Shown: positions 1 to 16,071 of the stretch, one piece after another
Layout: each line of letters starts with the position of its first letter
Numbering within the stretch: position 1 is the stretch's first letter
NCBI RefSeq assembly: GCF_009749395.1
Contig: NZ_WBIR01000005.1
Location: 248,001-312,000 of the forward strand
DNA length: 64,000 nucleotides
Direction: 5' to 3'
Source: Agromyces salentinus
GTDB taxonomy: Bacteria; Actinomycetota; Actinomycetes; Actinomycetales; Microbacteriaceae
Made by a program: the position numbers and the translations under genes
The notes under the pieces: model-generated
Databases searched by the model: none
What the model saw: the letters and a program-made list of their open reading frames with translations, nothing else
Told to the model about the DNA's origin: nothing

Positions 1-447
1 CAGCTCGCCGCTCTCGACGAGCTCCTGCCCGAGCGAGTGATCGACCGTCAGCTGCTCGAGCTCGATGCCGTGATGGCGATAGACCCGGGAGTCGCCGACG
101 TTGAAGACCAGCCAGGCGGGGCCCTCCTCGTCCTCGACGAGTGCGATGCCGGCCACCGTGCTGCCCGCACCGCGATCCGTGCTCGCCGCGACGGCGTCGA
201 CGGCGCTGCCCGCGGCGGCGAGCGCCGCCCGCACCTGCCCGACGCTGGCCACGTCGCCGCCCGCCACGTGCTCGCGGAACGCGTCGATCACCGCGGCGCT
301 GGCTCGATCGCCGGCCTCGTAGCCGCCCATGCCGTCGGCCACGACGAAGACCGGCCATTCGGCGAGCGCGGAGTCCTCGTTCGCCCGTCGCACGAGGCCG
401 ACGTCGGTCGCGACGGCGGAGGTCAGGCGGATGCTGGGGTGGGCCAT
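1..447 (-). CDS. PP2C-family Ser/Thr protein phosphatase (N-terminal part, cut by window edge)
   Basis: Metal-dependent protein phosphatase expected to remove phosphate from Ser/Thr of targets of the kinase encoded at the other end of this operon. 149 codons are visible. The metal-binding motif ADGMGG is at residues 37-42, the GAGSTVAG strand at about 93-100 and NVGDSRVYR at about 116-124, all in PP2C order. The C-terminal metal-binding Asp residues lie off the window. The ATG (445-447) overlaps the TGA of the FHA gene upstream as TGATG, so the two are probably translationally coupled. Family is certain. Substrates are inferred from the FHA and kinase neighbours. Confidence 0.93.
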   Translation of the reverse strand, partial: MAHPSIRLTSAVATDVGLVRRANEDSALAEWPVFVVADGMGGYEAGDRASAAVIDAFREHVAGGDVASVGQVRAALAAAGSAVDAVAASTDRGAGSTVAGIALVEDEEGPAWLVFNVGDSRVYRHHGIELEQLTVDHSLGQELVESGEL

Positions 448-1901
448 CAGTACAGCGCCCCCGGTCCGGTCGGGTCGGGTTCGACGCGGGCCTCGAGGGT
501 GCCGAGCACGAACCGGCCGGTGAACGGCGTGGCGACGCCCACCTCGATGAACTGGTCGGTGCCCGCGCCGTCGGCGATGAGGACGCCGTTCGTGGAATCG
601 AGGTCGGTGATCCACCACTGCGCCCCGTCGAACTGGATCATGGCGTGGGTCTTGGACAGCGTCCGGCTCGGGTCCGGGACGACGAGGGCGCGAGCCGCGG
701 CGTCGCCGGTGCGCGGGTTGCGCCCGAGCATGACGGTCGGCGCCTCGAGCGGCAGCGCCGTGCCGTCGGCGAGGACCAGTCGCCACTGGAACGCGGGTCG
801 CCGATCCACGACGACCGTGCGGTCGAAGGGATCCTCGTCGCCCGTGACGATGGTCGCCGCGTCATCGACCTCGAACGCATCGAGGGGCGACGCGACCGCC
901 TGCGCACCGGTCGCGGCGGCGCTCGGCGGCGCGAAGGCCGGCAGCGAAGCCGGAATGACGGGGCCTGCGGCGGGCCCGGTGGCGACCGGCCCGGTGGGCG
1001 GCGCGACGGGCGGGGTCGCCATGAACGGATTGGTGAGGGTCGCGAACGTCGGGGCCTGCGCCGGGGCGGGACTCGGGACCGCGGCCTGGCCGGGCGCCTG
1101 TGCCTCTGCCGGTCGATCCTGCGGCTGGGCCTGCGGCGCTCCCGGCATCGGCGGCAGCGGCTCGATGCGACCAGGGACGCGCGGCGGCTCGTCGATGCCG
1201 AACGCCGACGGCGGCGCGAAGGGGGACGACGCCGGGTCGGGAGCCGGCGTCGCCTGCCCGGCGGCCGGTGCCGCGAGCGGGCCGGTCGTCGGCTGGGCAG
1301 CCGGCCGGACGGGCGCCGCGGGTGCCGGCGTGATGGGGACCGCGCCGATCGGCGCGGGTGCGACGTGAGCGGATGCCGCGACCGGTGTCGCATCCACCGC
1401 GGGTCGGGGCGCCGCGAGCGGTCCGCCCGTCGTCGCCTCTGGATACGGTGCCGCGAGGGGGCCGCTGGGCTGCACGGGCGGGATGGAACCCGTGGCGCCG
1501 GTCCGCGACATCCGCCCGCGCTCGGGATCGGGCGACGGCCCGACGGCCAGCACCGTCGCCCAGACGGGCGGGAGCAGCACCCCGAGCACCGTCGTGCCGA
1601 CGCCGCGCCAGCTCTGCCGGCTGATGCGGTGCAGCGCGAACACCTTGAAGACCAGCCCCACGACCTGTGCCAGGGGGACGTAGAGCAGCAGGGCGAGCCA
1701 GGGCTGCTGTCCGCCGATGCGGAACACCTGCATCTCGTTGTAGACCGGCACCCACGCCGACCAGGCGGGCCGGCCGTACTGCGCGAAGACCTTCGCGAGC
1801 ATGAACGCGTACCAGACGTAGAGGCCGATCGCGATGACGAAGGTCACCCCGCTCACGAGCAGTGAGGCGGCGGCGATCTGCTGGGCTTCTTCGGGCGTCA
1901 T
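447..1901 (-). CDS. DUF5684-like membrane protein with C-terminal FHA domain
   Basis: 484 aa. Residues 1-125 carry about four hydrophobic segments, including the WYAFMLAKVFAQYGRPAW region typical of DUF5684-like small membrane proteins. Residues about 130-350 form a long Pro/Ala-rich, low-complexity linker. The C-terminal 110 residues are an FHA phosphothreonine-binding domain: LGRNPRTG, then SRTLSKTHA and DLDSTNGV, the canonical G-R, S-x-x-H and N positions. It should dock a phosphorylated partner at the inner membrane. It lies in the kinase/MoxR operon, overlapping the transglutaminase-like gene by ATGA and the PP2C gene by TGATG. Substrates of the neighbouring kinase are the obvious ligands, but this is inference. 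Confidence 0.92.
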   Translation of the reverse strand: MTPEEAQQIAAASLLVSGVTFVIAIGLYVWYAFMLAKVFAQYGRPAWSAWVPVYNEMQVFRIGGQQPWLALLLYVPLAQVVGLVFKVFALHRISRQSWRGVGTTVLGVLLPPVWATVLAVGPSPDPERGRMSRTGATGSIPPVQPSGPLAAPYPEATTGGPLAAPRPAVDATPVAASAHVAPAPIGAVPITPAPAAPVRPAAQPTTGPLAAPAAGQATPAPDPASSPFAPPSAFGIDEPPRVPGRIEPLPPMPGAPQAQPQDRPAEAQAPGQAAVPSPAPAQAPTFATLTNPFMATPPVAPPTGPVATGPAAGPVIPASLPAFAPPSAAATGAQAVASPLDAFEVDDAATIVTGDEDPFDRTVVVDRRPAFQWRLVLADGTALPLEAPTVMLGRNPRTGDAAARALVVPDPSRTLSKTHAMIQFDGAQWWITDLDSTNGVLIADGAGTDQFIEVGVATPFTGRFVLGTLEARVEPDPTGPGALY

Positions 1902-4426
1902 CGTGCTGGCTCCTGGAGTGATGCTCGTGCGGGGCGGAGGGATCTGGCGAGGGAGGCGAACGAGAGACGCGCCGACAGCCGGCGGCGCGCTCGCGCCCCG
2001 CCCCGGAGTTCGTCACGCTCGCGATCGACGAGCGACCACGCGGCATCCGCCTCGCTCGAGGTGGGCGGGTCGCCGGCGAAGACCGCGCGATCGACGAGCG
2101 CCGCGAGCGTCGCGGCGGCCGGGCGGCCGACGGCGCGCGCGGTGTCGGCGCGCACGACGTGCTCGGCCTCGAGCAACCCGTGGTCGGCGTAGAGGTCGAC
2201 GAGCTCCTCCCAGGCGCCGACGACGCGGACCTCGGGCGAGGGGTCGCGCCGCCGGCGACGCGACCGCAGGGACTTCGCCAGCAGCAGGACGGCGAGGGGC
2301 AGGAGCGCCAGCAGCACGGCGGCCGCACCGAGCCCGGTCCACCGCAGCCATGCGGCCACCGCGGGCGGCACGGCGGCGGCGCTGTCGTCGGGAGCCGCGG
2401 CCGCGTCGTTGGACTCGCTCTGCGCGGACGGCGGTTCGACCACCGGCGCGTCGGGACGCTCGGGCGTGGTCGGGTGCTCGGGGAGCTGCTCGCCCTCCTG
2501 GATGAGGCTCGGCGCGACCTCGTGCTGCGGGGTCGCGTCGACGGGCACCCACGCGTCGGCCCCGCCGGACACCTCGGTCCACGCGGTCAGCGCGGCGCCC
2601 GTGCAGACGTCGGTGCAGGCGTCGACGCCGGGCACCTCCGGGGCGCCGGGCAGCCGGAACCCGAGCACGACCCTGGACTCGTACCCGAGCGCCCGGGCGA
2701 TCAGTGCCACCGCGACCGCGAACTGCTCGTCGTCGCCGATGCCCGCCACGAGGGCGGCGTCGGATGCCTCGGGCCCGGCGAGTCGCTGCTGGTCGGCAAG
2801 CTGGGTGAACAGGGCCTCGATGCGGGCCTTCGAGTGGCCTGAGTAGCTCGGCAGGAAGGCGTAGCCGCTCCCGAGTCCCGCGATCCAGCCGGCGGCGTCG
2901 GGGCCGTCGGCGGTCGCGTGGCTGAGGTACCCGCGCGTGCGCAGGCGATCGACGAGCTCGAGGAACCCGGCGGCGGTCGCGGACTGCCCCTGCAGGTCCA
3001 GCCAACCCGTCAGGGCCGGGTACTCCTCGGGATCGAGCAACGCGGTGCCGCCCGGCTCCCCGAGTTCCCGCGTGCCGTCGGGTGCGGCGATGACGGCGTA
3101 CTCGTCGCCCGAGGCCAGGCCTCGAGGGGCGCCTCCGCCCGCGCCCGAGGCATCCGTGATCTCCGCCGTGTCGATCGAGGTCGCGTCGTCGGCCGAGCGG
3201 TGGAACCCGTCGTCGAGCGCTGCCGCGCGAGCACCCGTGAAGTCGGGCGCCGCGCGCAGGCCCAGTGGCGCGGGCACCCAGATGCCGGAGTACCCGTCGC
3301 CCACGCGCAGCTCGAATGCCGCGTCACCGGGCGCACGGACCGCCGCGCGCGGGAGGCGGTTGAAGCGGACGGCCTCCTCGTCCTCGTCGATGCCGACGTG
3401 GAACGTCTCGCCGTCGTACGCGTCGAGCGTCGCGAGCCGGAGCCGCTCGATGCCGGCGGTGTCGCCCTCGATGCTCAGCCACGGCTCGTCGATGCGCTCC
3501 GCGGTGAATGCGGATCGATAGCTCGCGAGCGGCGTCGGCGTCTGCCGCAGCACGACTTCGGGCTGCACGGCGTCGCGGAGCGCCGACCGGTCGACGATGC
3601 CGGCCGCGGCGGGCGCGACCACGGCGCCCGCGACGAGGGCGACGGCCACCAGCAGCCCGGCCAGTGAGCGGCGTCGGAACGCCGGCCAGCCGGAGAGTCC
3701 GGCGCGCTGGACGGTGCCCGCGGTCGCGCGCCTGAGCGCCATCGACCTGGTCGTTCGCGCCCGCAGCAGCAGCCAGGCGAGGGCGGCGACCAGCCCGCCG
3801 ACGGCGACGAGGAGCTCGCGTGGCGCGGGCACCGAGATCGACCCGAGGAGGACGGGGGCGCTCACCGCGCTCGACCCGAACGCCAGGCCGAATCCCGACA
3901 TCGCGAAGCCGACGAGCACCGCGAGCGGCGAGGTCCGGCGATCCGGCACGACGAGCAGGCCCGCGACGACCGTGCCGACGAGCATCACGAGGAGGAACGG
4001 CACGAGCACCGCCTGGTACTCGCCGAGCGGCAGGGAGAGCGTCAGCACCTGCTTCCAGCCCACCACGATGCCGACGGCGCCGTCGCGGATGCCGCGCCCC
4101 CATGCCTGCGGCCCGCCCGCCATCGCACTCGGGATGGCCACCGGGACGACGAGCAGCAGGTACGCGACGACCGTGGCCCCGACGATCGCGAGCCAGCGGA
4201 GCGGGCCTCGGAATGGAAGCGCCCGGGCGAGCGCGACGATGCCGAGCCCCGCGAGGATCCCGACCGCCGCGACCAGGATCGCCCGCGCCGAGCCGTAGAT
4301 GGGCCACGCCGCGACGGTCGCGAGCAGGCCCGCGACGACGACGTAGCCGAGGCCCAGGGCAGCGCGGAACGCACCGGCATCGGACGCCCGTGCCGGGCGG
4401 TCGGCGCGACGGCGGGGCCCGCTCAT
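1898..4426 (-). CDS. membrane-anchored transglutaminase-like protein (TgpA/DUF3488 architecture, degenerate catalytic site)
   Basis: 842 aa from the ATG at 4426, which overlaps the upstream stop as ATGA. The same frame stays open far upstream, but that stretch is the shadow of the DUF58 gene. About seven membrane helices fill residues 1-250. An extracytoplasmic region with a transglutaminase-like core follows, then one helix near residue 710 and a cytosolic tail. In active homologues the core has Cys, His and Asp. Here the Cys position reads GDDEQFAVAVALIARALG (Asp/Glu in place of Cys) and the His position reads LTAWTEV (Thr in place of His). Only the Asp of WVPVDATP remains. It is therefore probably a non-catalytic scaffold or binding protein. 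DUF58-MoxR-transglutaminase is a known gene association. Confidence 0.9.
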   Translation of the reverse strand: MSGPRRRADRPARASDAGAFRAALGLGYVVVAGLLATVAAWPIYGSARAILVAAVGILAGLGIVALARALPFRGPLRWLAIVGATVVAYLLLVVPVAIPSAMAGGPQAWGRGIRDGAVGIVVGWKQVLTLSLPLGEYQAVLVPFLLVMLVGTVVAGLLVVPDRRTSPLAVLVGFAMSGFGLAFGSSAVSAPVLLGSISVPAPRELLVAVGGLVAALAWLLLRARTTRSMALRRATAGTVQRAGLSGWPAFRRRSLAGLLVAVALVAGAVVAPAAAGIVDRSALRDAVQPEVVLRQTPTPLASYRSAFTAERIDEPWLSIEGDTAGIERLRLATLDAYDGETFHVGIDEDEEAVRFNRLPRAAVRAPGDAAFELRVGDGYSGIWVPAPLGLRAAPDFTGARAAALDDGFHRSADDATSIDTAEITDASGAGGGAPRGLASGDEYAVIAAPDGTRELGEPGGTALLDPEEYPALTGWLDLQGQSATAAGFLELVDRLRTRGYLSHATADGPDAAGWIAGLGSGYAFLPSYSGHSKARIEALFTQLADQQRLAGPEASDAALVAGIGDDEQFAVAVALIARALGYESRVVLGFRLPGAPEVPGVDACTDVCTGAALTAWTEVSGGADAWVPVDATPQHEVAPSLIQEGEQLPEHPTTPERPDAPVVEPPSAQSESNDAAAAPDDSAAAVPPAVAAWLRWTGLGAAAVLLALLPLAVLLLAKSLRSRRRRRDPSPEVRVVGAWEELVDLYADHGLLEAEHVVRADTARAVGRPAAATLAALVDRAVFAGDPPTSSEADAAWSLVDRERDELRGGARARRRLSARLSFASLARSLRPARASLQEPAR

Positions 4427-5811
4427 CGCACGGCTCCGCGAGCGAGCAGTTGCGGCAGGTCGTCCAGTTCGCCGAGGGTGAGCACGGTGAGCTCGTCGGA
4501 GCGGCGGACGCCGGGCTCGGCGCCGGGCTCGCAGCGCACCGCGACGACGGCGATGCCGGGCGGGAGGGCGATGGACGCCCGCCGCAGGCGCTGCAAGGGG
4601 ACGAGCGACCCGGTCACGAGGAACGCGATCGAGAGGTCGCCGAACGACTGGGCGACGAGTGCCGCGACGGATTCGAGGCGGATGACGCGCGCATCCGCGC
4701 CCGACGCGGACCCGCCCTCGAGGCCGGAGACGGCGTCGAGGAGGGTGCGCGGCGTGATGGTCGGGAGCGAGCGCATCGACTGCACCGCCCCGCGGTCGGC
4801 GACGTCGAGGCCGGAGCTCACGGCGACGAGCACGTCGCGGCCCTCCGAGACGCCTCGGACGCCCAGGGATGCCGCGGCGCTGACGGCCACCTCGAACTCG
4901 TCGTCGTCGGCGTAGCCCTCGAGGTCGAGGTCCAGCAGCACGGCGATCCGCGCGTGACGGGACTCCTCGTACTGGCGCACCATGAGCTTGCCCGTGCGAG
5001 CGGTCGACTTCCAGTGCACGTGCCGCTGCGAGTCGCCCGGCACGTAGTCGCGCACCGCGTGGAAGGAGAGGTCGGCGTCGACGAGGCGATTCGACGGCGC
5101 CCCCTCGAGGTCGCGGATGAGTCCTGCGCTCGAGGACGGCAGGAGCGCGGTGACGGGGTGCACGTGCACGCGCTGCACCTCGGGCCAGCTCATCGCGCGG
5201 CGGAGCACGCGCAGGGGGTCGCCACGGGAGACGGTCATCGGGCCCACGTCGATGATCCCGCGCCGCTGCGCGGCGATGACGAGGTCCTCCCGATGGTGTC
5301 CCCCGCCGCGGAGGAGTGGGACGTGCGCCTCGACGAGCCCCGGCCCCACCGGGATGTCGACGACACCCGGCAGCGCGGGCCGCGAGCCGTCGTTCACGAT
5401 GTCGAGGGTGCCGCGGATCTCGGAGCCGGCGACGACGCGGTCGCGATCCAGCTCCAGCCGCACCCGGTACTCGTGCGCGCCGAGCAGGAACGGGATGCAG
5501 ACCAGGAGCAGCGCCAGCGCCATCGCCGCGACCACCCACGCCTCGAACCATCCGAACGCCGCTCCGGCGATCGCGCCGCCGACCACCAGGCCGACGAGCA
5601 GGAGTCCGGCCGGGGAGACCGTCTCCTGCACCCAGGCGCCGGCCCGAGCCACCGCGGCGGCGACCGCGCGGGCACCACGGCGCACGCGCGCGGCGCCGGC
5701 AGCGGCGGGGCTGCGGTGCGTGCGCGCGAGTCGGGTGACCGTCGCGCCACGGGTCGAGGTGACCGTGTCGGTGGTCGCGGGTTCGCGGAGGAGCGCGTTC
5801 TGAGGGGTCAC
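4423..5811 (-). CDS. DUF58 domain-containing membrane protein
   Basis: 462 aa from a GTG start that overlaps the MoxR stop as GTGA. An N-terminal basic stretch of about 80 residues precedes two hydrophobic helices (about 85-130). A beta-rich region and the DUF58 signature follow: DYVPGDSQRHVHWKSTARTG, then KLMVRQYEES, with a VWA-like Rossmann core behind it (VLLDLDLEGYADDDEF). DUF58 proteins are partners of MoxR ATPases and are thought to present a VWA-like domain to the ATPase ring. The gene sits directly after moxR and before the transglutaminase-like gene, the usual order. The biochemical role is not known for this family. Confidence 0.93.
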   Translation of the reverse strand: MTPQNALLREPATTDTVTSTRGATVTRLARTHRSPAAAGAARVRRGARAVAAAVARAGAWVQETVSPAGLLLVGLVVGGAIAGAAFGWFEAWVVAAMALALLLVCIPFLLGAHEYRVRLELDRDRVVAGSEIRGTLDIVNDGSRPALPGVVDIPVGPGLVEAHVPLLRGGGHHREDLVIAAQRRGIIDVGPMTVSRGDPLRVLRRAMSWPEVQRVHVHPVTALLPSSSAGLIRDLEGAPSNRLVDADLSFHAVRDYVPGDSQRHVHWKSTARTGKLMVRQYEESRHARIAVLLDLDLEGYADDDEFEVAVSAAASLGVRGVSEGRDVLVAVSSGLDVADRGAVQSMRSLPTITPRTLLDAVSGLEGGSASGADARVIRLESVAALVAQSFGDLSIAFLVTGSLVPLQRLRRASIALPPGIAVVAVRCEPGAEPGVRRSDELTVLTLGELDDLPQLLARGAVR

Positions 5812-6773
5812 GCCACGCCGTTCTCCCGAGGCGCGGCCACGTCGAGCAGGATCTGGTTGATCACGGCGACCGCGGTCACGCCGTCGAACTCGGCCTCGGG
5901 CTCGAGCACGAGCCGGTGCGAGAGCGCCGCGACGGCGAGCGCGCGCACGTCGTCGGGGGTGGCGTACGTGCGGCCGGCAGCTGCCGCCCAGGTCATGGCC
6001 AGGCGCGACAGGGCGATCGCCCCGCGCACGCTGACGCCGAGGCGCACCTCGGAGGCCCGCCGCGTGGCGTCGACCAGGCGCATGACGTAGTCGGAGACGA
6101 GCGGATTCACGTAGACGCCGCGGGAGAGCTCGGTCATCGCGACGATCGTGTCGGTGCCGACGATCGCCTCGAGCTTGGGCTTCGGGGCGCCCACGGCCTG
6201 CAGGATCCGCATCGTGGCGGCCTCGTCGGGGTAGCCGATCGAGGTCTTCACCGAGAAGCGGTCGAGCTGCGCCTCGGGCAGGCGGTACGTGCCGGCCTGC
6301 TCGATCGGGTTCTGCGTCGCGATCACCATGAACGGATTGCCGACCGGGCGGGTGACGCCGTCGATCGTGACGTTGCCCTCCTCCATGACCTCGAGCAGCG
6401 AGGACTGGGTCTTCGGGCTCGCGCGGTTGATCTCGTCGGCGAGCACGATGTTCGCGAAGACCGGCCCGGCGTGGAACTCGAAGTGGCCGGCCTTCTGGTC
6501 GTACACGGTGATGCCGGTGACGTCGCCGGGCAGCAGGTCGGGCGTGAACTGGATGCGCGAGGAGGTGCCGTGGATGGTCTCGGCCATGGCGCGCGCCAGC
6601 GCGGTCTTGCCGGTGCCGGGTGCGTCCTCGAGGAGCACGTGGCCGCCGCTCACGGCGGTCGCGAGCACGAGCTCGACGACGTGCCGCTTGCCGAGCACGG
6701 CCTGCTCGACGTTGTCGGCGATGAGCGAGAACGTCTCGGCGAACCAGGCGGCTTGCTCCGGTGCGATCGTCAC
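5808..6773 (-). CDS. MoxR-family AAA+ ATPase
   Basis: 321 aa, the normal MoxR length. Walker A is APGTGKTALA near residue 45, Walker B is IVLADEINRA and sensor 1 is VIATQNPIEQAGTYRLPEAQ. The GTG at 6773 was chosen because an AGAGGA Shine-Dalgarno lies 8 nt upstream and the protein then begins where the family does. An earlier ATG in frame (6929) would run into the end of the preceding gene. MoxR ATPases remodel or activate partner proteins, usually VWA/DUF58 partners. The next gene encodes DUF58 and overlaps by GTGA. The 52 bp gap to the Ig-like gene upstream is the largest within this operon. Confidence 0.94.
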   Translation of the reverse strand: MTIAPEQAAWFAETFSLIADNVEQAVLGKRHVVELVLATAVSGGHVLLEDAPGTGKTALARAMAETIHGTSSRIQFTPDLLPGDVTGITVYDQKAGHFEFHAGPVFANIVLADEINRASPKTQSSLLEVMEEGNVTIDGVTRPVGNPFMVIATQNPIEQAGTYRLPEAQLDRFSVKTSIGYPDEAATMRILQAVGAPKPKLEAIVGTDTIVAMTELSRGVYVNPLVSDYVMRLVDATRRASEVRLGVSVRGAIALSRLAMTWAAAAGRTYATPDDVRALAVAALSHRLVLEPEAEFDGVTAVAVINQILLDVAAPRENGVA

Positions 6774-6825
6774 GGGGTGGTCCTCTCGGAGGGGGTGGGG
6801 TCGGTTGGTCTGGGGTGGGCCACTG

Positions 6826-9800
6826 CTACGGTCCGGCCGGCGGCACGGGGGGCTCGGGGTCCGGCGTGGGCGTGGGCGTGGGCGGGTCCGGCGGGTCCGT
6901 CGGCTCCGGCGGCGGGCACAGCGATCCACTGCGCACGATGGGCGCGAGGTCGACGTACTCCCCCGTGAAGACGAGGTCGTAGGTGACCGCGAGCGGCGCG
7001 TTGACGGGATCGGGCACGACCCAGTTGCGCACGACAGCCGAGCCCCATGCCGCCTGCGAGACGGTCGCGAAGACCTCGTCGAGCGTCGGGGCCGCAGCGT
7101 CGGCCGGTTGCGGGAGGCACTGCTCGGCGAAGTCGACCGTGACCTCGGTCGGCGCCGTGGCCGCGGTGACCGCCACCTCGTCGGAGCACTTGGTGCTGAA
7201 CCACGACTGCTTGCAGGTCTTCACGCGCACGTCGCCGGGCGAGGCCGACGTCTGCAACGAGAAGTCCTCGCGCCAGTCGCCGTACATCCAGTACACGGGC
7301 CGGAATCCGCCGCTCGCCTCGACCACGGGCGCCTGCTGCAGCCGGTACTCGAAGTGGCTGCCGCCTCCGGACGGCGTGGTCGCCACGGTGTAGCTCAAGG
7401 AGCCACCGGGCAGGTCGACGTCGTGGATGGTGTCGGCCCTGGCCGTGTCGGACTGCACGACGCCGTAGCCGTTCGAGGCGCACACCTTCACGTAGTAGCG
7501 CTCGCGCTCGCCGAGCCCCGAGAGCGTCGAGGAGGTGGACTCGACCTCGGCACCGGAGGTCTGCAGGCCGCCGTCGCCGTCGACCCAGCAGCGGGCGTCG
7601 CCGTTGCGCCAGGCGAGGTAGCGCACGTCCGACGGCCGGTCGCTGAAGTTGACGTCGAGGCCGACGCCGGAGACCAGGATCGAGGTGTTCGAGGCGGATG
7701 CCGCGGCGATGGCGTTCGGGCTGAGTCGCGGCGCACCGGCGACGGTGACGGGAACCGCCGTCGTCGCGCCCTCGTTGCCTCCGCGCCCGGTGGGCGGGTC
7801 GAAGATGCTCACCGGCACGAGCGTGAGCATCTTCGGTCCGGGCGCCAGCGTCAGCTCGGTCCTCGTCGTCGCTCCGCTGCGCTCGATGACCGTCCCGGTC
7901 TCGACGACCCGGAAGGATCGCGCGTCCCGGTCGGCGGTGATGCTGAGTGCGACGACGCCGGCATCGGGTGAGGTCGTGCCCTCGCGGTAGACGGGCTCGG
8001 CCGAGGCGGACGCGATGTCGGGTGCCTCGTAGCTCCAGGTCGTCACGGGGTTCGTGCTCGTCGAGACGCCGACGCCGTTGACCGCCCGCACCGCGAAGTC
8101 GTGCCGTTCGCCGGGGGTGAGGCCGGAGACGGTGCACCACCAGGCGCCGGGCGCGCGGGGTCCGCAGTCGGCGGGAACGGTGCGGCCGCCCTCGAGCACC
8201 TCGAGGCCGGTGACGGGCGGGTGCGCGCGCATCGCCTCGCCGAGGGAGACCTCGAGGGTCACGCTCGAAGCCGTGTAGTCGGCCGTGGAGACGGCGGCCG
8301 GAGCCTGCGGCAGGCCGAGCAGGTCGACGGTGAGGCGGCCGGTGCCGGTCCGGCCCTGCGCATCGGCGACCGTGAACGGCACGACGCACTCGCCGCCGAA
8401 GGCGTCGGCGCCGCTCGGCCACGTGACGACGATGGTGCGATCGTCGGCGGCGCGAATGGTCGCGACCTGGCAGGACGTCGCGCCCGCGCCGAGTCCGGTG
8501 AGCTTCAGGCCGGAGCCGGTCTTGCCCGCGAACGGGTCGTACTCCCCGCCGACCCCGATGACGGTGACGGCGCAGGAGGCGCCGTCACCGACGGAGCACT
8601 GCTGGGTCAGCACGGCGCCGCGCGGGGCATCCGCGGGAGCGGAGCCGACCACCAGCGAGATGGCGGAGGTCAGTCCGTCGAAGGCGCCGATGCTGACGGT
8701 CGCGGTCTCGCGGGTCCCCGGCCTGGCGTCGGCGCGAGCGACGATGCTCACCCGGTCGCCCGCCTGCTCGACGGTGAAGGCGCTCCCGGAGTACGCGACC
8801 GAGTAGTCGAGCTTGGAGGGATCGCCCTCGCGGCCACCCTCCCATGTCGTCATCTCGTCGTAGAGCGCGACGGTCTCGCTCGCGCCGGGCGGCACGGTGC
8901 GGCTCACGGCCGAGAGGATCGCCTGCGGGTCCTTCGGGATGATCGCGATCGGCACGCCGACCCACGACCATCGCTTCTGGCCGTCGAGGCGCACGGGGAT
9001 CAGGCAGTGGTCGCTCCACGGCGCCTCGCGCCCCGCGGCGTACTCGACCTCGCCGCCCGCAGCCGGTCGGCAGGTCGCGGCCGCGCGCTGCACGGCGTAC
9101 GTCTCGGCGGCGTCGACCTCGACCGCGTCGCCGGAGGGGAGGTCGAGCAGCTCCCGGACCTCGAACTCGACCGACTGCTCCTCGCCGACCTCGATCGGGT
9201 CGGCGTCCGCGCGGAGCTGCACCCGCAGGTCGTCGGATGCCGGGACCACGAGGAATCCGAACGCCTCCGCCTCGCGGCCCGCTCGGTCCGTGCCGTGCAC
9301 GCGGAACGGGACGAGGGCTCCGGCCTCGGGCGTGGGGCCGACGATGCTCTGGCCCGCGACCCGGTAGGCGTCGGAGCCGTCGCCCCAGATCTCGACCTCG
9401 AGCTGCCCGAGCTCGCCGGACGCCCATTCCACGTGACCCGAGACGACGTCGAGCCCGCGCTCGGGCAGCTGCGCGCGGGTGCTCGCGGTGACCACGGTGT
9501 CCGAGACGACCGGCGCGTCGGGCGACTCGGACTCGGTCACGTTGACGACGATGAGGCCCTCGGCCGTGCTCGAGGTGCGCGCGGACTTCACCGTGTACCG
9601 GTACGAGTTGGTGCCGGCGACGTCGCCGGGGCGCAGCACGACCCGGCCGTCCTCGAGCGAGGTCGAGCCGTCGACGAGCCCGTCGAGGCGTGCGTACTCG
9701 CTGCTGCCCTCTGGCGCGTTCGGCACGAGTGCGACCAGATCGAGGTCGCCCTGCGCCGGGTCCACGTCATTGCCCGCGGGCTGGATCGTCACCGGCGCCT

Positions 9801-12800
9801 CGGCGGACTGCTGGGCGCGCACGTAGTCGCTGAACGTCACGGGCGCGGCATCCGTCACCGAGGCCGTGAGCACGCCGATGCGCACCCGGCCGGTGCCCTC
9901 GTCGCCCGAGGCGTCCCGCACGGTGTACTCGAAGGCGGGCTGCTCGGCGCCGGTGCCGTTCTCGGGTGCGGTGTAGACGATCGTGTCGCCCTCGGCCGAG
10001 ATCGTGGCGATGCCGAGGCCCGTGGCCGGCTGCGTCACCGAGGTGAGCACCGTGCGATCGCCGTCGGGGTCCATGCCGACCGCCGGCACGGGCACGCGCA
10101 CGCTCTGCCCGCTGAGCACGCGGGCGAGGAGGAGCCTGGGCTCGGGCGCGCGGTTGGCGCCGTCGGGCAGAACGGTCACGGTCACCGTGCTGTGGTCGAG
10201 CCGCTCGGGCGCCTGCTCGAGGCCGACGGCGTATCCGAGCTCGTAGGTGCCGGGCGTGGTCGGGGCGAGGTAGCGGACCCGGTCGCCCGAGGCGAACGCG
10301 AGCTCGCCGGCCGCCGCGGAGGAGCTCACGTCGGGGTGCACCACGAGGCGCTCGCCGCGCGGGCTGACGTCGTTCGCCGTGACGGGGATGTCGACGAGCT
10401 CGCCGACTCGCACGGTGACGGTGTCGGGCATCGCGATGGGGCTGAGGCCGACGGATGGCGCGACCTGGAACACCGCGAGGTCGCCCACGGCCGTGCCGCC
10501 GGCGCCGTCGGCGACGGTCACCTTCGCGCGTCCGACGAGCCCCGGCTGTCCGTCGACGGTCACGCCCGTGGCGCGTACGAGCGACTGCGACACGACGCCC
10601 ACGCCGAGCTCGGGCGTCGCCGAGACCGCCCCGGTGACGACGAGGACGCGGCCGGTGGTGTTCTGGGCCGCATCGAGGATGTCGACGAGCGCATCCTCAC
10701 CCGCGCGCACGAACGCCGTGACGGGGGCGATCGCGAGCGCCGCGCCGGGCGCCGCGACGGTGACCCGGATCGAGGCGGTCTGCTCGGCCCGCGTCACGAG
10801 GTCCTGGACCGTGAAGGTCGCGAGGTACGCGCCCGGCGCCTCGGCCGAGAGCTCGATCTCGCCGGAGGACGCGTTCGGCACGACGGTCAGTCCGCCGCTC
10901 GCGGCGGTGGCCGTGGGAACGGCGTCGACGAGGCGGAGCGAGCCCGACCCGCCGCTCACGTGGTCGGCGATCTGCACGGTCGCGGTCTCTCCGGCGCCCG
11001 CGGTGACGGCGACCGGCGCGAGGTCGAGCGCGGCGCTCGAGGTCACGCGCAGGTCGAGGGTCGCCTCGGCCGTCGCCCCCCGCTCATCGGCGACGGTCAG
11101 GCGCACCTGGACCTTCTCCGCGCCCGCGTTGGGGTCGGTATGGCGCACGGCGACCCGGCCGTCGGCCATGGGCACGACCGAGATCGGCGCCGACGGGTCG
11201 ACGGGCTGCGCATCGGCCAGGACGAAGGCGTCGCCCTCGGGGTCGACCCACCCGGAGAGCACCGAGACGAGCGCGGTGCCGCCCGGCATGAGCTCGGGCG
11301 CGGGCCAGCGCTGCACGCAGTCGGCGACGCCGCACCAGGCGGGCGCACTGTTGACGTCGTCGGGGACCACGGTGAGCGTCACGGTCGTGGCCGCAGAGCT
11401 CGCCGCGCCATCCGTCGCCGCATAGGTGAAGGTCGCCGACCCCGACGTCGCCCGCACGCGCACGGTCGGCGTCTGGTCGTTCGAGACGAGGGCAAGGTCG
11501 CCGAACGCCGCGTCGGAGAGCCCGCCGGTCATCGACGCCGGATCGACGGTGAGCACGTCCTTGGCGTTCGGGTCGTGGTCGTTCAGCAGCACCGGCAGCT
11601 CGACCTGCTGGCCGGCGCGCACCCCGAAGGCGTCGGCGACGGCGACCGGCGGCTCCTGGCGCGCGAGGTCCTCGACCTCCTCGGTGCCGACGCGGTCCTC
11701 GACCTCGTCGTCGAGCGCCCACTGCTCGAGCGGCACCAGGCGGCCGTCGGGGACGGTCCACAGCATGCCCGAGCTCGTCTCGTTGAGCACGGCCCGGTCG
11801 CCGTTGCCGCGCAGCACGGGTGCGAGCGACTGCGCGGCATCCTGGTCGCGGGCACCGGCCGGGAGTTCGAGCGCCACGGACCGATCGCCCTCGCTCGTCC
11901 AGGCGGTGCCGCCCTCGGGCGAGAGCCACGCGGCGACGACCTGGCCGTCGACCACGATCGGCTGCGCGGGCGTGCCCGCGGCGGCGACGGTGCGTTCGGC
12001 CTTCGCGCTCCCGTCGGTCGCGAGCTCGAGGAGGCCCCCGGAGTCGGCGATAGCGACGGATGCCGCGGCCCGGTCGCCCTGCTGCAGTCGCGCGTCGGCC
12101 GCGACGTCGATCCGGATCGGCTCGTCGGAGCCCTCGAGCCAGACGCGACCCTCGGCGGCGTCGAGGAGGACCCAGCGCGTGCCGACGACCGTCAGCTCGA
12201 GGCGGGCGTCGGCCACGGGAGCATCGACCACCGGGGCGGCGTCGCCGTCGAACTCCCCCGTCGCGGCGTCGTAGAGCCGAACGGCCTCCTCGCGGGCCGA
12301 GTACATCGCGATGAGGCCCTCGGGCGACACGCCCACGGTCGTGGCCGCGTACGTCTCCTCGTCGTCGCCCTCGGACGAGCGCTCGGCGTACGGGTCGACC
12401 GGGACGGCGTCATCGCCGTCGAGCCGCCCGGCGTGCACGGTGCCGGTGTCGGTCCGGTAGGCGATCCACTCGCCGGCCGTCACCACGTCGCGCGTGCCGG
12501 CCGGGGTCGGCAGCGAGCCGCCCCCGTCGTCGGAGGCGAGGTCGGCGGGATCGGCGGGGTCGATCGGCCAGCGCTGGCGCGACCCCTGGTTGTAGACGGA
12601 TGCCGCGGAGCCGGCCTGCACGACCGTGGTGGGGTCGTCGACGTCGCGGACCACGTCGATCTCGGCGAGGTCGGTGTTCACTCGGGCGTACTGGCCGGAG
12701 TCGCGGGTGACCCACACCGAGGTCTCGACGCGCGGCACCTCCTGCGCCTCGTAGCCGTTGGCCGTGACCGCGAGCGTCGCCACCACGGCGACGGCGGCCA

Positions 12801-12867
12801 CCCCGGCGACGGACGCGATGATCGCACTGCGACGGCCGGTACGCGCCGACGACCTGCCCGCGGCCAT
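6826..12867 (-). CDS. giant membrane-anchored Ig-like/cadherin-like/Fn3 surface protein
   Basis: 2013 aa. One N-terminal membrane helix (about residues 14-35) with a basic cytosolic tip is followed by about 330 residues of short beta strands with propeller-like spacing (EWIAYRTDTG, VRLYDAATGEF, TRWVLLDAAEGRVWL). Many Ig/cadherin-like modules follow, recognisable by phrases such as VRAGQQVELPVLLNDHDPN and VRVGELVDIPVTANDVSPRG, then Fn3-like modules (TGLEVLEGG, LTPGERHDFAVRAVNGVGVS). The C-terminus is a Pro/Thr-rich tail without a sorting motif. Cysteines come in local pairs (CGVADC, CSVGDGASC), suggesting disulfides outside the cell. The ATG at 12867 overlaps the kinase stop as TGATG. The frame continues upstream only as a shadow of the kinase. 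It is probably an extracellular fibre or sensor controlled by the kinase. Function is unknown. Confidence 0.9.
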   Translation of the reverse strand: MAAGRSSARTGRRSAIIASVAGVAAVAVVATLAVTANGYEAQEVPRVETSVWVTRDSGQYARVNTDLAEIDVVRDVDDPTTVVQAGSAASVYNQGSRQRWPIDPADPADLASDDGGGSLPTPAGTRDVVTAGEWIAYRTDTGTVHAGRLDGDDAVPVDPYAERSSEGDDEETYAATTVGVSPEGLIAMYSAREEAVRLYDAATGEFDGDAAPVVDAPVADARLELTVVGTRWVLLDAAEGRVWLEGSDEPIRIDVAADARLQQGDRAAASVAIADSGGLLELATDGSAKAERTVAAAGTPAQPIVVDGQVVAAWLSPEGGTAWTSEGDRSVALELPAGARDQDAAQSLAPVLRGNGDRAVLNETSSGMLWTVPDGRLVPLEQWALDDEVEDRVGTEEVEDLARQEPPVAVADAFGVRAGQQVELPVLLNDHDPNAKDVLTVDPASMTGGLSDAAFGDLALVSNDQTPTVRVRATSGSATFTYAATDGAASSAATTVTLTVVPDDVNSAPAWCGVADCVQRWPAPELMPGGTALVSVLSGWVDPEGDAFVLADAQPVDPSAPISVVPMADGRVAVRHTDPNAGAEKVQVRLTVADERGATAEATLDLRVTSSAALDLAPVAVTAGAGETATVQIADHVSGGSGSLRLVDAVPTATAASGGLTVVPNASSGEIELSAEAPGAYLATFTVQDLVTRAEQTASIRVTVAAPGAALAIAPVTAFVRAGEDALVDILDAAQNTTGRVLVVTGAVSATPELGVGVVSQSLVRATGVTVDGQPGLVGRAKVTVADGAGGTAVGDLAVFQVAPSVGLSPIAMPDTVTVRVGELVDIPVTANDVSPRGERLVVHPDVSSSAAAGELAFASGDRVRYLAPTTPGTYELGYAVGLEQAPERLDHSTVTVTVLPDGANRAPEPRLLLARVLSGQSVRVPVPAVGMDPDGDRTVLTSVTQPATGLGIATISAEGDTIVYTAPENGTGAEQPAFEYTVRDASGDEGTGRVRIGVLTASVTDAAPVTFSDYVRAQQSAEAPVTIQPAGNDVDPAQGDLDLVALVPNAPEGSSEYARLDGLVDGSTSLEDGRVVLRPGDVAGTNSYRYTVKSARTSSTAEGLIVVNVTESESPDAPVVSDTVVTASTRAQLPERGLDVVSGHVEWASGELGQLEVEIWGDGSDAYRVAGQSIVGPTPEAGALVPFRVHGTDRAGREAEAFGFLVVPASDDLRVQLRADADPIEVGEEQSVEFEVRELLDLPSGDAVEVDAAETYAVQRAAATCRPAAGGEVEYAAGREAPWSDHCLIPVRLDGQKRWSWVGVPIAIIPKDPQAILSAVSRTVPPGASETVALYDEMTTWEGGREGDPSKLDYSVAYSGSAFTVEQAGDRVSIVARADARPGTRETATVSIGAFDGLTSAISLVVGSAPADAPRGAVLTQQCSVGDGASCAVTVIGVGGEYDPFAGKTGSGLKLTGLGAGATSCQVATIRAADDRTIVVTWPSGADAFGGECVVPFTVADAQGRTGTGRLTVDLLGLPQAPAAVSTADYTASSVTLEVSLGEAMRAHPPVTGLEVLEGGRTVPADCGPRAPGAWWCTVSGLTPGERHDFAVRAVNGVGVSTSTNPVTTWSYEAPDIASASAEPVYREGTTSPDAGVVALSITADRDARSFRVVETGTVIERSGATTRTELTLAPGPKMLTLVPVSIFDPPTGRGGNEGATTAVPVTVAGAPRLSPNAIAAASASNTSILVSGVGLDVNFSDRPSDVRYLAWRNGDARCWVDGDGGLQTSGAEVESTSSTLSGLGERERYYVKVCASNGYGVVQSDTARADTIHDVDLPGGSLSYTVATTPSGGGSHFEYRLQQAPVVEASGGFRPVYWMYGDWREDFSLQTSASPGDVRVKTCKQSWFSTKCSDEVAVTAATAPTEVTVDFAEQCLPQPADAAAPTLDEVFATVSQAAWGSAVVRNWVVPDPVNAPLAVTYDLVFTGEYVDLAPIVRSGSLCPPPEPTDPPDPPTPTPTPDPEPPVPPAGP

Positions 12868-14006
12868 CAGATGACGCCTGCGAGGAGGAGCGCGGCCGCG
12901 CCGGCCGCGAGGACCAGGACGGCGGAACCGACCCCGATGAGCGCGGGTTTCAGCCACCCGCTGCCGGATCGCGCCGGCGCGAGGCCGCCCGCATCGACGA
13001 CGGCGGCCGAGGGGCGCGCCTCGGCCTGGGCGGCGGCTCGGCCGGCTCGGCGCGAGTCGGGGTTCACGGTCGTGACGACCGGTCCGCGCTGCGACGCGTC
13101 GCCGAACGAGATGTGGGCCGCCGATGCCCACTCGGCCGACGCGACCTCGAGGCTCGTCGGGGCGACGCCGAGTTCGTACTGCGCCCACCGCAACTGCTCG
13201 CCGAACTCGGCCATCGAGGCGTACCGGCGGGCGGGGTCGCGCTGCATCGCGGTCGAGAGGACGGTGTCGATGCGGGCGGGCACGCCCCTGGGGCCGAGCG
13301 GCGTGTATTTGGCGCCGAGCACGCGGCGGGAGAGCTGGTCGACCGAGTTGCGGCTGCGGTCGGCGAGCTCGAACGGGCTGTGCCCCGCGAGCAGCGTGTA
13401 GAGCGTCGCCCCGAGGCTCCAGACCTCGGTCGCGACGGTGCCGGTGGTGCGTTCGCCGAGCACCTCGGGGGCGCTCCACGGAATCGACATCGCGAACGTC
13501 TCACCCCCGCCGCCGTCGCCGATCGCTCCTGCGATGCCGAAGTCGGCGAGCACCGGTGCCCCGAGCGAGTTCACGAGCAGGTTCGACGGCTTGATGTCGC
13601 GATGCAGCATGCCGGACCGGTGCGCCGTCTCGAGGGCACCGGCCATGCGCACGCCGATGTCGAGCACCTCCCCCGCCGGCATGGGGCCGCGCTTGACCCT
13701 GGCCCCGAGCGACTCGGGGCAGTACTCCATGACGAGGTAGGGGCGGCCGTCGGAGGAGATCGAGGCCTGGTGGATCGTGACGATCGACGGGTGCGCGCTG
13801 ACCCGCGCCATGGCGTCGGCCTCGACCGTGAAGGCCCGGCGGGCGTCGGGATCGACGACGTCGACGAGGAGCACCTTCACGGCGGTCACGCGCCGCGGCA
13901 GGTCCTGCTCGTAGAGGAACACGTCCGCGAAGCCGCCCGCGCCGAGCGGGCGGACGTAGCTGTACCCGGCGAGCACCGGCGGCGCTGACGGCAAGCGTTT
14001 CGGCAC
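12867..14006 (-). CDS. transmembrane Ser/Thr protein kinase
   Basis: 379 aa from a GTG preceded by AGAAGGGGG at 8 nt. Kinase core: Gly loop LGAGGFADVF (21-30), ATP Lys in TAVKVL (about 44), catalytic loop HRDIKPSN (135-142), DFG (155-157) and the SAPE version of the APE motif. A juxtamembrane linker of about 80 residues leads to a single C-terminal helix (WLKPALIGVGSAVLVLAAGAAALLLAG) and almost no extracellular part, so it has no PASTA sensor domains. It is the first gene of the seven-gene operon ending with the PP2C phosphatase, so it probably phosphorylates operon members. Its sensing input may come from the giant protein encoded next. That is inference. Confidence 0.95.
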   Translation of the reverse strand: MPKRLPSAPPVLAGYSYVRPLGAGGFADVFLYEQDLPRRVTAVKVLLVDVVDPDARRAFTVEADAMARVSAHPSIVTIHQASISSDGRPYLVMEYCPESLGARVKRGPMPAGEVLDIGVRMAGALETAHRSGMLHRDIKPSNLLVNSLGAPVLADFGIAGAIGDGGGGETFAMSIPWSAPEVLGERTTGTVATEVWSLGATLYTLLAGHSPFELADRSRNSVDQLSRRVLGAKYTPLGPRGVPARIDTVLSTAMQRDPARRYASMAEFGEQLRWAQYELGVAPTSLEVASAEWASAAHISFGDASQRGPVVTTVNPDSRRAGRAAAQAEARPSAAVVDAGGLAPARSGSGWLKPALIGVGSAVLVLAAGAAALLLAGVI

Positions 14007-14145
14007 GAACGTGGCCCCCTTCTGCCGGTGTTTCGTCGAGTCACCGGCGGAGCGGTTCGTATCGGAATGCGGAATGCGTGCGAGCGCGGGCCACGGGAGC
14101 GACCCGGTGGAGCGGAGGACGGCCGCGCCGCGGGCATCCGCGGTT

Positions 14146-14151
14146 ATCTTA
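14146..14151 (-). promoter_or_regulatory. candidate -10 element of the kinase operon
   Basis: On the minus strand this reads TAAGAT, a TANNNT -10 hexamer, about 140 bp upstream of the kinase GTG inside the only non-coding gap (14007-14212) before that operon. No good -35 is visible. The rest of the gap shows no gene. Confidence 0.4.
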
Positions 14152-14212
14152 GACGACGTCTCGGAACCCACCGAATCGGACGGCAGCGGCCGAGCGGGCT
14201 TCGGCCGGTTTG

Positions 14213-14581
14213 CTACTCGGCGTCGAAGGGCGTCTCGCCGAGCTTCAGCCGGTCGATGAGCGCGGCCGCGTGGTTGGTGCTCAGGATGATGCGCGCGAAC
14301 TCGCCGCCCGCGAGCTCGAGCACGACGGCCTGGCGCTTGCCCTTGACGATCACGAAGTCGAGGCCGCCGTGGTACTTCCACGCGCCGACGGCCACCACGA
14401 GCGGCAGCTCGGTGCCCTTGGTGCGGATGCCGCGGATCCACACCCACGGATCGTCGGTGATCGTCGCGGACCTGATGTCGTCGCGCTGCACCACGATGTC
14501 GTCGGCGCGCAGCGCGAGTGCCTTCTCGGCCGGGGTGAGGAGGACCTCGATCCGGTCGGTGTGCACGCGTAGCTGAGCCAT
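14213..14581 (-). CDS. small conserved hypothetical protein, possible PH-like fold
   Basis: 122 aa from the ATG at 14581, preceded by AGGATGGGACC. Translation is all beta-strand-like with one C-terminal helix: a basic N-terminal strand, then DDIRSATITDDPWVWIRGIR, KYHGGLDFVIVKGKRQAVVL and a final helix ending TNHAAALIDRLKLGETPFD. Alternating short strands closed by a single helix suggest a PH-like domain of the kind found in small actinobacterial proteins, but no motif proves it. The stop is about 200 bp upstream of the kinase start, so it may be a separate transcript. Function is unknown. Confidence 0.8.
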   Translation of the reverse strand: MAQLRVHTDRIEVLLTPAEKALALRADDIVVQRDDIRSATITDDPWVWIRGIRTKGTELPLVVAVGAWKYHGGLDFVIVKGKRQAVVLELAGGEFARIILSTNHAAALIDRLKLGETPFDAE

Positions 14582-14640
14582 GGTCCCATCCTGCCCGAGT
14601 CGTCCGACATGAGGACAGCCGACGCCCCACAACGGGGAAA

Positions 14641-14684
14641 CGGTTCGATACCGTTATCGAGCCGTAACCGTGATGCCCGGTTAC
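14641..14684. repeat. two adjacent stem-loops between hemL and the PH-like gene
   Basis: Positions 14641-14664 read CGGTTCGATA-CCGT-TATCGAGCCG, a 10 bp stem with one G:U-type mismatch. Positions 14664-14684 form a second stem, GTAACCG with CGGTTAC. They lie between the hemL stop (14725) and the start of the minus-strand gene at 14581, so they could terminate hemL or serve as operators for the small gene. There is no T-run. Confidence 0.5.
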
Positions 14685-14724
14685 CGACGCTTCGGGTCGG
14701 CGCCGGGGCACCGGTCGCGCCGGC

Positions 14725-16071
14725 TCAGGCGGGACGAGCGGATGCCGCGGCGCGGGCGGCGGCCGGAAGCGCATCCACGATGCGACCGATCGCCGCCTCG
14801 TCGTGCGCGGCCGTGACGAACCACGCCTCGAACACCGACGGCGGAAGCGAGACGCCCGCGTCGAGCATCGCGTGGAAGAAGGGCGCGTAGCGCCACGACT
14901 CCTGGCGCTGCACGCCCGCGTAGTCGTGCACGCCGCCGGCGACCTCCTCGCCGAACACGAAGCTGAAGAGGTTGCCCGCCCGCTGCACGCCGTGCGCGAC
15001 GCCCTCGACGGCGAGCGCCGTCGAGACCGCCTCGCTGATCGTCGCCGCCGCCTCGTCGAGGTGCGCGTAGACCGCGGCGTCCGCCGCCCGGAGCGTCGCG
15101 ATGCCCGCGGCGACGGCGACCGGATTGCCCGAGAGCGTGCCGGCCTGGTAGACGGGGCCGAGCGGGGCGAGCTGGTCCATGATGTCGGCGCGACCGCCGA
15201 GTGCTGCGACGGGCATGCCGCCGCCGATGACCTTGCCGAAGGTCAGCAGGTCGGGCGTGTACGCGTGCTCGGTGCCGGACTCGAGGCCCCACCAGCCGGC
15301 CTCGGACACGCGGAAGCCCGTGAGCACCTCGTCGCTGATGACGAGGGAGCCGTTCGCGTGCGCGAGCTCGACGAGCGCCGCGTTGAAGCCGGGCAGCGGC
15401 GGCACGACGCCCATGTTCGCGGAGGCGGCCTCGACGATGACGGCGGCGATGCGGTCGCCGTGCTCGGCGAACGCCGCGCGCACGGCATCGAGGTCGTTGT
15501 AGGGCAGCACGAGCGTGAGCGCCGCGATGTCGGCGGGCACGCCGGCCGAGCCGGGCAGCGCGAAGGTCGCGAGCCCGGAGCCCGCCTCGGCGAGCAGGCC
15601 GTCGGAGTGGCCGTGGTAGTGCCCGGCGAACTTCACGAGCACGTCGCGGCCGGTGAAGCCGCGGGCGAGGCGGATGGCGCTCATCGTCGCCTCGGTGCCG
15701 GTGGAGACCAGCCGCAGCTTCTCGACCGGCGCGACGCGGGCCTCGACGAGCTCGGCGAGCTCGGTCTCCGCGGGCGTGGACGAGCCGAACGAGAGGCCGC
15801 GGGCCGCGGCATCCGTCACCGCCTGGACGACGCGCGGGTCGGCGTGGCCGAGGATCGCGGGCCCCCACCCGGCGACGAGGTCGACGTACTCGCGGCCCTC
15901 GACGTCGGTGACGTACGCGCCGCGCGCGCTCACAAGGAAGCGCGGGGTGCCGCCCACCGAGCGGAAGGCCCGCACGGGCGAGTTGACCCCGCCCGGGATC
16001 GCGGCCTGCGCACGGGCGAAGAGCTCGGCGTTGCTCGACGGGGCGTCGGCGCCGGAGTGGCGGGCGTTCAT
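14725..16071 (-). CDS. hemL: glutamate-1-semialdehyde 2,1-aminomutase
   Basis: 448 aa, normal length. PLP enzyme converting glutamate-1-semialdehyde to 5-aminolevulinate, the second dedicated step of the C5 haem route. It opens with the conserved region [20 protein letters not shown] and has the PLP-lysine motif [12 protein letters not shown] together with SDEVLTGFR. The ATG overlaps the hemB stop as ATGA, so hemB and hemL are co-translated. The C-terminus ([11 protein letters not shown]) is Ala-rich. Partner of the glutamyl-tRNA reductase encoded by hemA at 29741. Confidence 0.98.

Follow-up and report, generated by a model that had tools for sequence, protein, structure and literature searches.

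At the start of a 64,000-nucleotide stretch of the Agromyces salentinus genome (assembly GCF_009749395.1, contig NZ_WBIR01000005.1, positions 248,001 to 312,000 of the forward strand; hereafter the window) lies an operon of seven genes, all on the minus strand of a 4.23-Mb genome, encoding in order a Ser/Thr protein kinase, a giant protein, a MoxR-type AAA+ ATPase, a DUF58 protein, a transglutaminase-like protein, a DUF5684/FHA protein and a PP2C phosphatase. Five of the six gene junctions are overlaps of 1, 4, 4, 4 and 1 bp and the remaining one, from giant to MoxR, is a 52-bp gap; gene starts were set by inspection and no gene caller was used. An earlier note, made from the sequence alone, had described this arrangement: its seven genes in one direction and their junctions were confirmed from the coordinates, all of its named domains by Pfam, and the giant does have the 2013 residues it gave. 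Its extent of 1 to 14006 holds at the kinase start, but the operon runs on past base 1 and the end of the PP2C gene lies 387 bp outside the window (L006:7614-8447). By eye, and without scoring, the translations seem to keep their functional motifs intact: HRD, DFG and APE in the kinase, the core of the FHA domain, the aspartates of PP2C and, in MoxR, the Walker motifs. No Rfam match reached the gathering score in window positions 1-16000.

A gene set of this kind has been described in Bifidobacterium as the PFNA operon, in which pkb2, fn3, aaa-atp (MoxR), duf58 and tgm follow one another in constant order and are accompanied in some species by prpC, a hypothetical gene and fha (PMC8430577; the published statements given here and below come from excerpts of the papers cited). 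The PFNA genes are co-transcribed in B. longum GT15 (PMC8430577), and the kinase Pkb2 phosphorylates MoxR in B. longum (PMC8430577, PMC6803598), which gives the earlier note's proposal of a kinase switching a MoxR complex a published counterpart in the homologous proteins. The window has all five core genes, ordered and oriented as in Bifidobacterium, as well as the accessory prpC and fha, with the difference that its FHA gene directly precedes the PP2C gene so that the order of these two is swapped. It further differs from Bifidobacterium in a kinase without outer domain, a single Pfam fn3 stretch in the giant (FN3) and a Thr-rich DUF58 tail, and in that its genome holds three paralogous operons. 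Loci L172-L174 of our family f4 have the order kinase-FN3-MoxR-DUF58-TGM-PP2C, where TGM is the transglutaminase-fold protein; in these loci PP2C precedes a more distant FHA match, which in L172 and L174 lies on the other strand, and the head region of the L174 FN3 is 97% identical to B. tissieri FN3. By BLASTP against L174 the five core genes of the window give identities of 26-56% with E values from 1e-28 to 1e-115 (MoxR 56%, kinase 41%, DUF58 32%, TGM 26%, FN3 26%), and the FHA protein and PP2C give 32% and 38% (partial), respectively. We consider it almost certain that the window locus belongs to the PFNA kind; the set, to which the earlier note put no name, already has one. An open-access literature search at title and abstract level found no paper describing the gene set outside Bifidobacterium; the mycobacterial moxR operon has been remarked to resemble PFNA (PMC12067865), and the excerpts of PMC7701253 do not use the name. 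One genome, G026, was considered as a source of the bifidobacterial operon and rejected, as only MoxR-DUF58 is found there; locus L157, considered likewise, is truncated. In another family f4 locus, L175 (G327), the order is MoxR-DUF58-TGM-FN3, with FN3 after the set.

The PFNA operon and FN3 are stated to occur only in Bifidobacterium (PMC10688814). We examined 80 named loci, the best of 562 confirmed relatives, chosen by DUF58 similarity alone. FN3-MoxR-DUF58-TGM are contiguous and co-directional in 69 of them and, since the loci were picked on DUF58 alone, this arrangement is not due to chance; the gene order, whose restriction to this strain the earlier note would have taken as speaking against its reading, is kept far beyond it. 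Nine of the other 11 loci have less than 3 kb upstream of DUF58 and two (L136, L149) give no match to MoxR. The 69 loci bear 30 genus labels, including Agromyces, Arthrobacter, Cryobacterium, Nocardioides, Microbacterium, Promicromonospora and Herbiconiux; one label is doubtful (Sporosarcina, L144), and Leifsonia and Agrococcus are represented here by metagenome-assembled genomes only. A kinase accompanies the set in 64 of the 69, PP2C in 47 and FHA in 55, the last being a rough count from two query proteins under a permissive threshold. Occurrence confined to Bifidobacterium is not what we observe; such a restriction concerns where the gene set occurs and does not define it. The other genera with PFNA operons (Agromyces, Arthrobacter, Cryobacterium, Nocardioides and so on) are mainly environmental, and because close relatives occur in many actinobacteria from soil, plants and other environments the basic job of the operon is unlikely to be the sensing of an animal host.

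A DUF58 match at 1e-20 was found in 57 of 296 genomes sampled across the class and one of at least 150 bits in 29, so the operon is far from universal. The giant's head is found at 110 bits or more in 28 of these 29 genomes and in 0 of the 267 others; the sole exception, G202, is an assembly of 160 contigs, and weak heads of 60-74 bits occur in six genomes of the sample. At most five head candidates were scored per genome, and copy counts are lower bounds. Within the genus, all 25 genomes have a PFNA-type DUF58 of at least 200 bits, of the window type (at least 60% identity) in 10. Several records deserve separate mention. Locus L144 (‘Sporosarcina beigongshangi’) adjoins an Arthrobacter locus in the tree and has its FN3 split into two frames, and the TGM motif of L128 (‘Sphaerisporangium cinnabarinum’) nearly equals that of Cellulosimicrobium L107; both records are probably contaminated or mislabelled. 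PFNA-type DUF58 matches contain internal TGA codons in G115 (one) and G219 (two), representing decaying copies, sequencing errors or over-extended matches, and the G027 DUF58 showed one internal TGA in one search and none in the alignment search. In Labedella (L087, L088) a C40-type set is followed by a second kinase-FN3, that is, two PFNA-type operons stand back to back.

The kinase, homologous to pkb2 (379 aa, 14006-12867, minus strand; Pfam Pkinase 1.1e-39), shows 41-53% identity by BLASTP, over some 300 aa, with the kinase of L174 and with its two paralogues in the window's genome. By simple hydropathy prediction it ends in a C-terminal transmembrane (TM) helix at residues 361-379, without an outer domain. 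Sister kinases bear an outer Fn3-fold domain according to structure-based fold assignment (no Pfam family scored above cut-off in the eight kinase tails searched), and the tree places a single loss of this domain within the PFNA group, in the window's clade. The earlier note had rightly seen no sensor domain on the kinase but missed that its absence, judging from this tree, is a derived loss. The tail of a sister kinase resembles cytokine-receptor Fn3 domains among others, which shows the fold and not the ligand. The window kinase is not a PASTA kinase: it scores 144 bits against the Stk1/PknB equivalog NF033483, whose cut-off is 450, and has no outer PASTA domains.

The giant, homologous to fn3 (12867-6826, minus strand; Pfam Big_9, fn3 and Cadherin_5), consists of a short N-terminus, one TM helix, a head, Ig/cadherin-like repeats, Fn3 and a Pro-rich C-terminus. 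It is homologous over most of its length to the L174 FN3 and to its own-genome paralogues, and its closest named matches are from Agromyces. Bifidobacterial FN3 is described as a membrane-anchored protein of about 2000 aa with two Fn3 domains; the giant has a similar length and an N-terminal TM helix, and one Pfam fn3 stretch compared with two in L174. The propeller-like head of the earlier note was borne out by structure prediction: residues 38-425, the piece folded (11593..12756, minus strand), are predicted by AlphaFold2 as a beta-propeller that is almost wholly beta (pLDDT 87.7, pTM 0.85). Its Foldseek and VIA match lists are filled by propellers including Rsa4, cd1 nitrite reductase and BamB, and as these are generic propellers no function was read from them. 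No Pfam family was found in the window head even at an E value of 10, and a head profile matched the sensor propeller of M. tuberculosis PknD at 1.5e-6. Some relatives have the head without the fibre. In L066 (G212, 7933-9237) the FN3 gene has shrunk to TM helix and propeller head with MoxR directly after it, and the outgroup head proteins L073, L074 and L077 are also without Ig fibre while MoxR-DUF58 is retained; a single-sequence PDB search with the L074 protein gave just two weak matches. Because these few relatives keep the head and the MoxR set without the fibre, the propeller head rather than the fibre looks like the constant partner of the MoxR set. Two FN3-like open reading frames (ORFs) stand in tandem before a single MoxR-DUF58-TGM in 13 of the 80 loci, the upstream one being cut by the locus end (L079, L096, L098, L099, L101, L103, L106, L108, L109, L111, L119, L120 and L146), and genomes G269 and G318 have two heads 6.2 and 5.4 kb apart.

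The tgm product is a membrane protein of 842 aa (4426-1898, minus strand) whose transglutaminase fold, as the earlier note had it, is recognized by Pfam (PF01841 Transglut_core, 3.1e-9), but its catalytic Cys is gone. In PFNA-type TGMs G-D/N-x stands where the catalytic G-x-C would be, most often as GDDEQ[FY]A; the window has GDDEQFA, with Asp at the place of the Cys. The Cys is absent in all 112 readable TGMs of the 115 collected (including outgroup loci L073 and L074), the other three being L083 and L086, cut by contig ends, and L175, in which the motif is not readable. Among the 110 read by pattern the residue at this place is D in 84, E in 8 and A, S and Q in 6 each, and L053 and L073, missed by the pattern, are also without Cys; a His stands at its expected place in 58 of 113. 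As a control, the TGM of the separate MoxR-DUF58-TGM set in the window's own genome (L158) has GYCVHFA...HAW whereas the genome's three PFNA TGMs do not; other transglutaminase family members of the genome gave no readable motif. Outgroup loci L071, L073, L074, L076 and L077 are without the Cys too, so on this sampling its loss is older than the Ig fibre. Judged by these motifs, the so-called transglutaminase is predicted not to work as such an enzyme, and with the catalytic Cys lost the usual cross-linking is not expected of it. A literature search on a dead transglutaminase with MoxR found no paper. The separate set with intact catalytic Cys-His lies at C40:113-117 kb, and no FN3 match was found next to it in a search covering L040 and the first 11 kb of the adjoining L041.

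The MoxR protein (aaa-atp; 321 aa, 6773-5808, minus strand) matches AAA_3 (5.6e-61, 204.6 bits) and AAA_lid_2 and has the P-loop APGTGKT. Its gene adjoins that of the DUF58 protein (462 aa, 5811-4423, minus strand; PF01882 1.1e-10), as in the mycobacterial moxR1-DUF58-vWA operon and in MoxR-DUF58-transglutaminase sets. The DUF58 protein has a hydrophobic (membrane) stretch preceded by a Thr-rich N-terminal tail, presumably cytosolic. In the 60 residues before the first membrane stretch Thr makes up a mean of 17% in 19 readable window-type loci compared with 7% in 68 others, a comparison that may take in residues ahead of the true start codon, and a TSTR..[ST]VTR-like motif is present in most of the 19 tails. 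This tail is a candidate kinase site and FHA dock. The MIDAS motif DxSxS was found in none of 109 readable PFNA-type DUF58 proteins and none of 4 readable outgroup ones, an uninformative result as there was no motif-bearing control. Next in the operon are a protein of 484 aa (1901-447, minus strand) made of DUF5684, a Pro-rich linker and FHA (PF18936 3.5e-10, PF00498 7.9e-7), which could be the docking or reading part for a phosphate mark, and the PP2C phosphatase homologous to prpC (277 aa, from 447 past window base 1, minus strand; PF13672 PP2C_2 2.2e-9), which scores 181 bits against the Stp1/IreP family NF033484, below its cut-off of 230.

The genome holds three divergent PFNA-type operons: that of the window, one on C33 (L038) with the order PP2C-kinase-FN3-MoxR-DUF58-TGM and one on C40 (L041, L042) with PP2C-kinase-FN3-MoxR-DUF58-TGM-FHA. 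The C33 and C40 MoxR proteins are 60-63% and their DUF58 proteins 39% identical to those of the window. Among the named loci, the same seven are ranked first by each of the window's five core genes (L133, L138, L143, L150, L151, L154 and L155), those of C33 all rank L152 first and differ below it, and those of C40 all rank L078 first. These rankings suggest that each of the three sets diverged as a unit, which would fit co-adapted partners and also genes linked in one operon. Several genomes hold two or three divergent copies. The flanking genes of the window operon also flank it in five close relatives (L044-L048) and were not found beside any of the 16 other window-type loci listed, for some of which little flanking sequence is available. 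A 122-aa ORF (14213-14581, minus strand) with no Pfam or NCBIfam match lies just upstream of the kinase and stays beside the operon in the five closest loci L044-L048.

How might these proteins work together? Our tentative preference, held at somewhat less than even confidence, is for a split receptor acting on a MoxR-DUF58-pseudotransglutaminase arm. The membrane-anchored propeller giant and the kinase would act as the two halves of the receptor, meeting via their single TM helices, and an outside signal sensed by the head, the fibre or the pseudotransglutaminase would change kinase activity. The kinase would then phosphorylate MoxR and probably also the Thr-rich DUF58 tail, the FHA protein would read the phosphate mark and PP2C erase it. 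The MoxR-DUF58 pair might remodel a membrane partner, most likely the pseudotransglutaminase/propeller complex, and thereby set the display of the giant or its retention in the envelope. In favour of this reading, as of membership in the PFNA kind, we count the homology to the bifidobacterial operon, the contiguity of the set in 69 of 80 named loci, the co-occurrence of head and DUF58, the agreement of the core genes in their rankings, the propeller head with its match to PknD, the Fn3-fold kinase tail and its single loss, the missing catalytic Cys, the Thr-rich DUF58 tail and the published phosphorylation of MoxR by Pkb2. One known system for comparison is M. tuberculosis PknD, which carries its kinase and an outer NHL propeller on one chain. 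Kinase and outer beta-propeller are common to both, whereas the window puts them on two proteins and gives the propeller a long Ig/Fn3 stalk; the window kinase is not of the PknD type, as it ends at its TM helix and the propeller is on the next gene.

Several observations weigh against the split-receptor arrangement. The PknD match is local, at about 70 positions of the profile, and nothing was found when the window head was searched against the PDB as a single sequence. The kinase gene is last in 45 of the 69 named loci and first in 18, and because it is oftener last than beside the giant a pairing of their TM helices is not implied by gene order generally. Thr contents of 15-22% also occur in a few DUF58 tails outside the window's clade (L126, L057, L054, L152). 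L136 and L149 encode FN3-DUF58-TGM-kinase with no match to MoxR, FHA or PP2C within about 21 kb, so the MoxR arm is not always encoded with the rest; together with the phospho-reader and eraser it seems to have been lost as a set in these 2 of the 80 loci. L136 comes from a Microbacterium suaedae record and L149 from an Arthrobacter oryzae record.

An assembly or export machine, close to what the earlier note proposed, would have MoxR-DUF58-TGM fold, export or anchor the fibre, with kinase and phosphatase only tuning it. FN3 directly precedes MoxR in 69, and DUF58 in 2 (L136, L149), of the 71 loci with at least 3 kb upstream of DUF58, and the tandem FN3-like ORFs before one MoxR in 13 of 80 loci are arranged as clients of one machine might be. 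However, the Ig fibre is gone in L066, L073, L074 and L077 while MoxR-DUF58 remains, so a long fibre is not needed, and the transglutaminase fold has no catalytic Cys. We found no support for a complex that assembles, pulls on or exports the fibre, and regard this explanation as unlikely. Plain envelope-stress signalling, with many kinase substrates and the remaining genes forming a co-regulated envelope set without a joint complex, would agree with the report that Pkb2 phosphorylates 11 substrates besides MoxR in B. longum (PMC8430577). Against it stand the nearest loci shared by the five core genes within each of three paralogous sets and the tight co-occurrence of head and DUF58, both of limited force since linkage in one operon would also yield them; we think it quite unlikely. 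The function published for bifidobacteria is host interaction, with cytokines or epithelium of the host as binding partners of the giant and immune signals of the host as the input of the kinase. It draws on a stated role of FN3 in adhesion (PMC6803598), on the binding of TNF-alpha by an FN3 fragment and on a rise in operon expression seen with TNF-alpha in B. longum (PMC10688814). Yet the same operon is present in Agromyces, Arthrobacter, Cryobacterium, Nocardioides, Herbiconiux, Promicromonospora and others, with two or three divergent copies in several genomes, and the cytokine-receptor likeness of the sister kinase tail speaks for a fold and not a ligand. As the basic function we find host interaction very unlikely; a later co-option for a host role in gut species is possible. 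Finally, a conflict or defence system of the MoxR-vWA-beta-propeller ternary kind (Kaur et al. 2020), which shares with the window a MoxR, a vWA-like protein (here DUF58) and a propeller and is hinted at by a PF20030 bpMoxR score of 41 bits (cut-off 27), is hardly credible, as AAA_3 scores 205 bits, the P-loop is APGTGKT and not the GXXXTAKS variant often seen in that subsystem, the propeller is on the giant and not fused to the vWA domain, the subsystem is reported mostly from bacteroidetes, planctomycetes, verrucomicrobia and proteobacteria (PMC7159879), and the strong PADLOC matches are kinase-domain models on the kinase.

Returning to the split receptor, one possibility, which we consider rather doubtful in its full form, is that PFNA represents an old and widespread actinobacterial split-receptor system with a PknD-like propeller placed on its own giant. 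Its kinase would control MoxR-DUF58 and a dead transglutaminase, the kinase of the window's clade would have become dependent on the giant, and its part in host immunity in bifidobacteria would have been acquired late. Whereas the literature confines the gene set to bifidobacteria and accounts for it by the sensing of host immunity, we find it in many actinobacteria, with several divergent copies per genome. What it does can therefore be asked in environmental strains that are easy to grow. Three handles on the link between kinase, FHA protein and MoxR are the head with its predicted propeller fold, the Fn3 tail lost from the kinase and the DUF58 tail rich in Thr.

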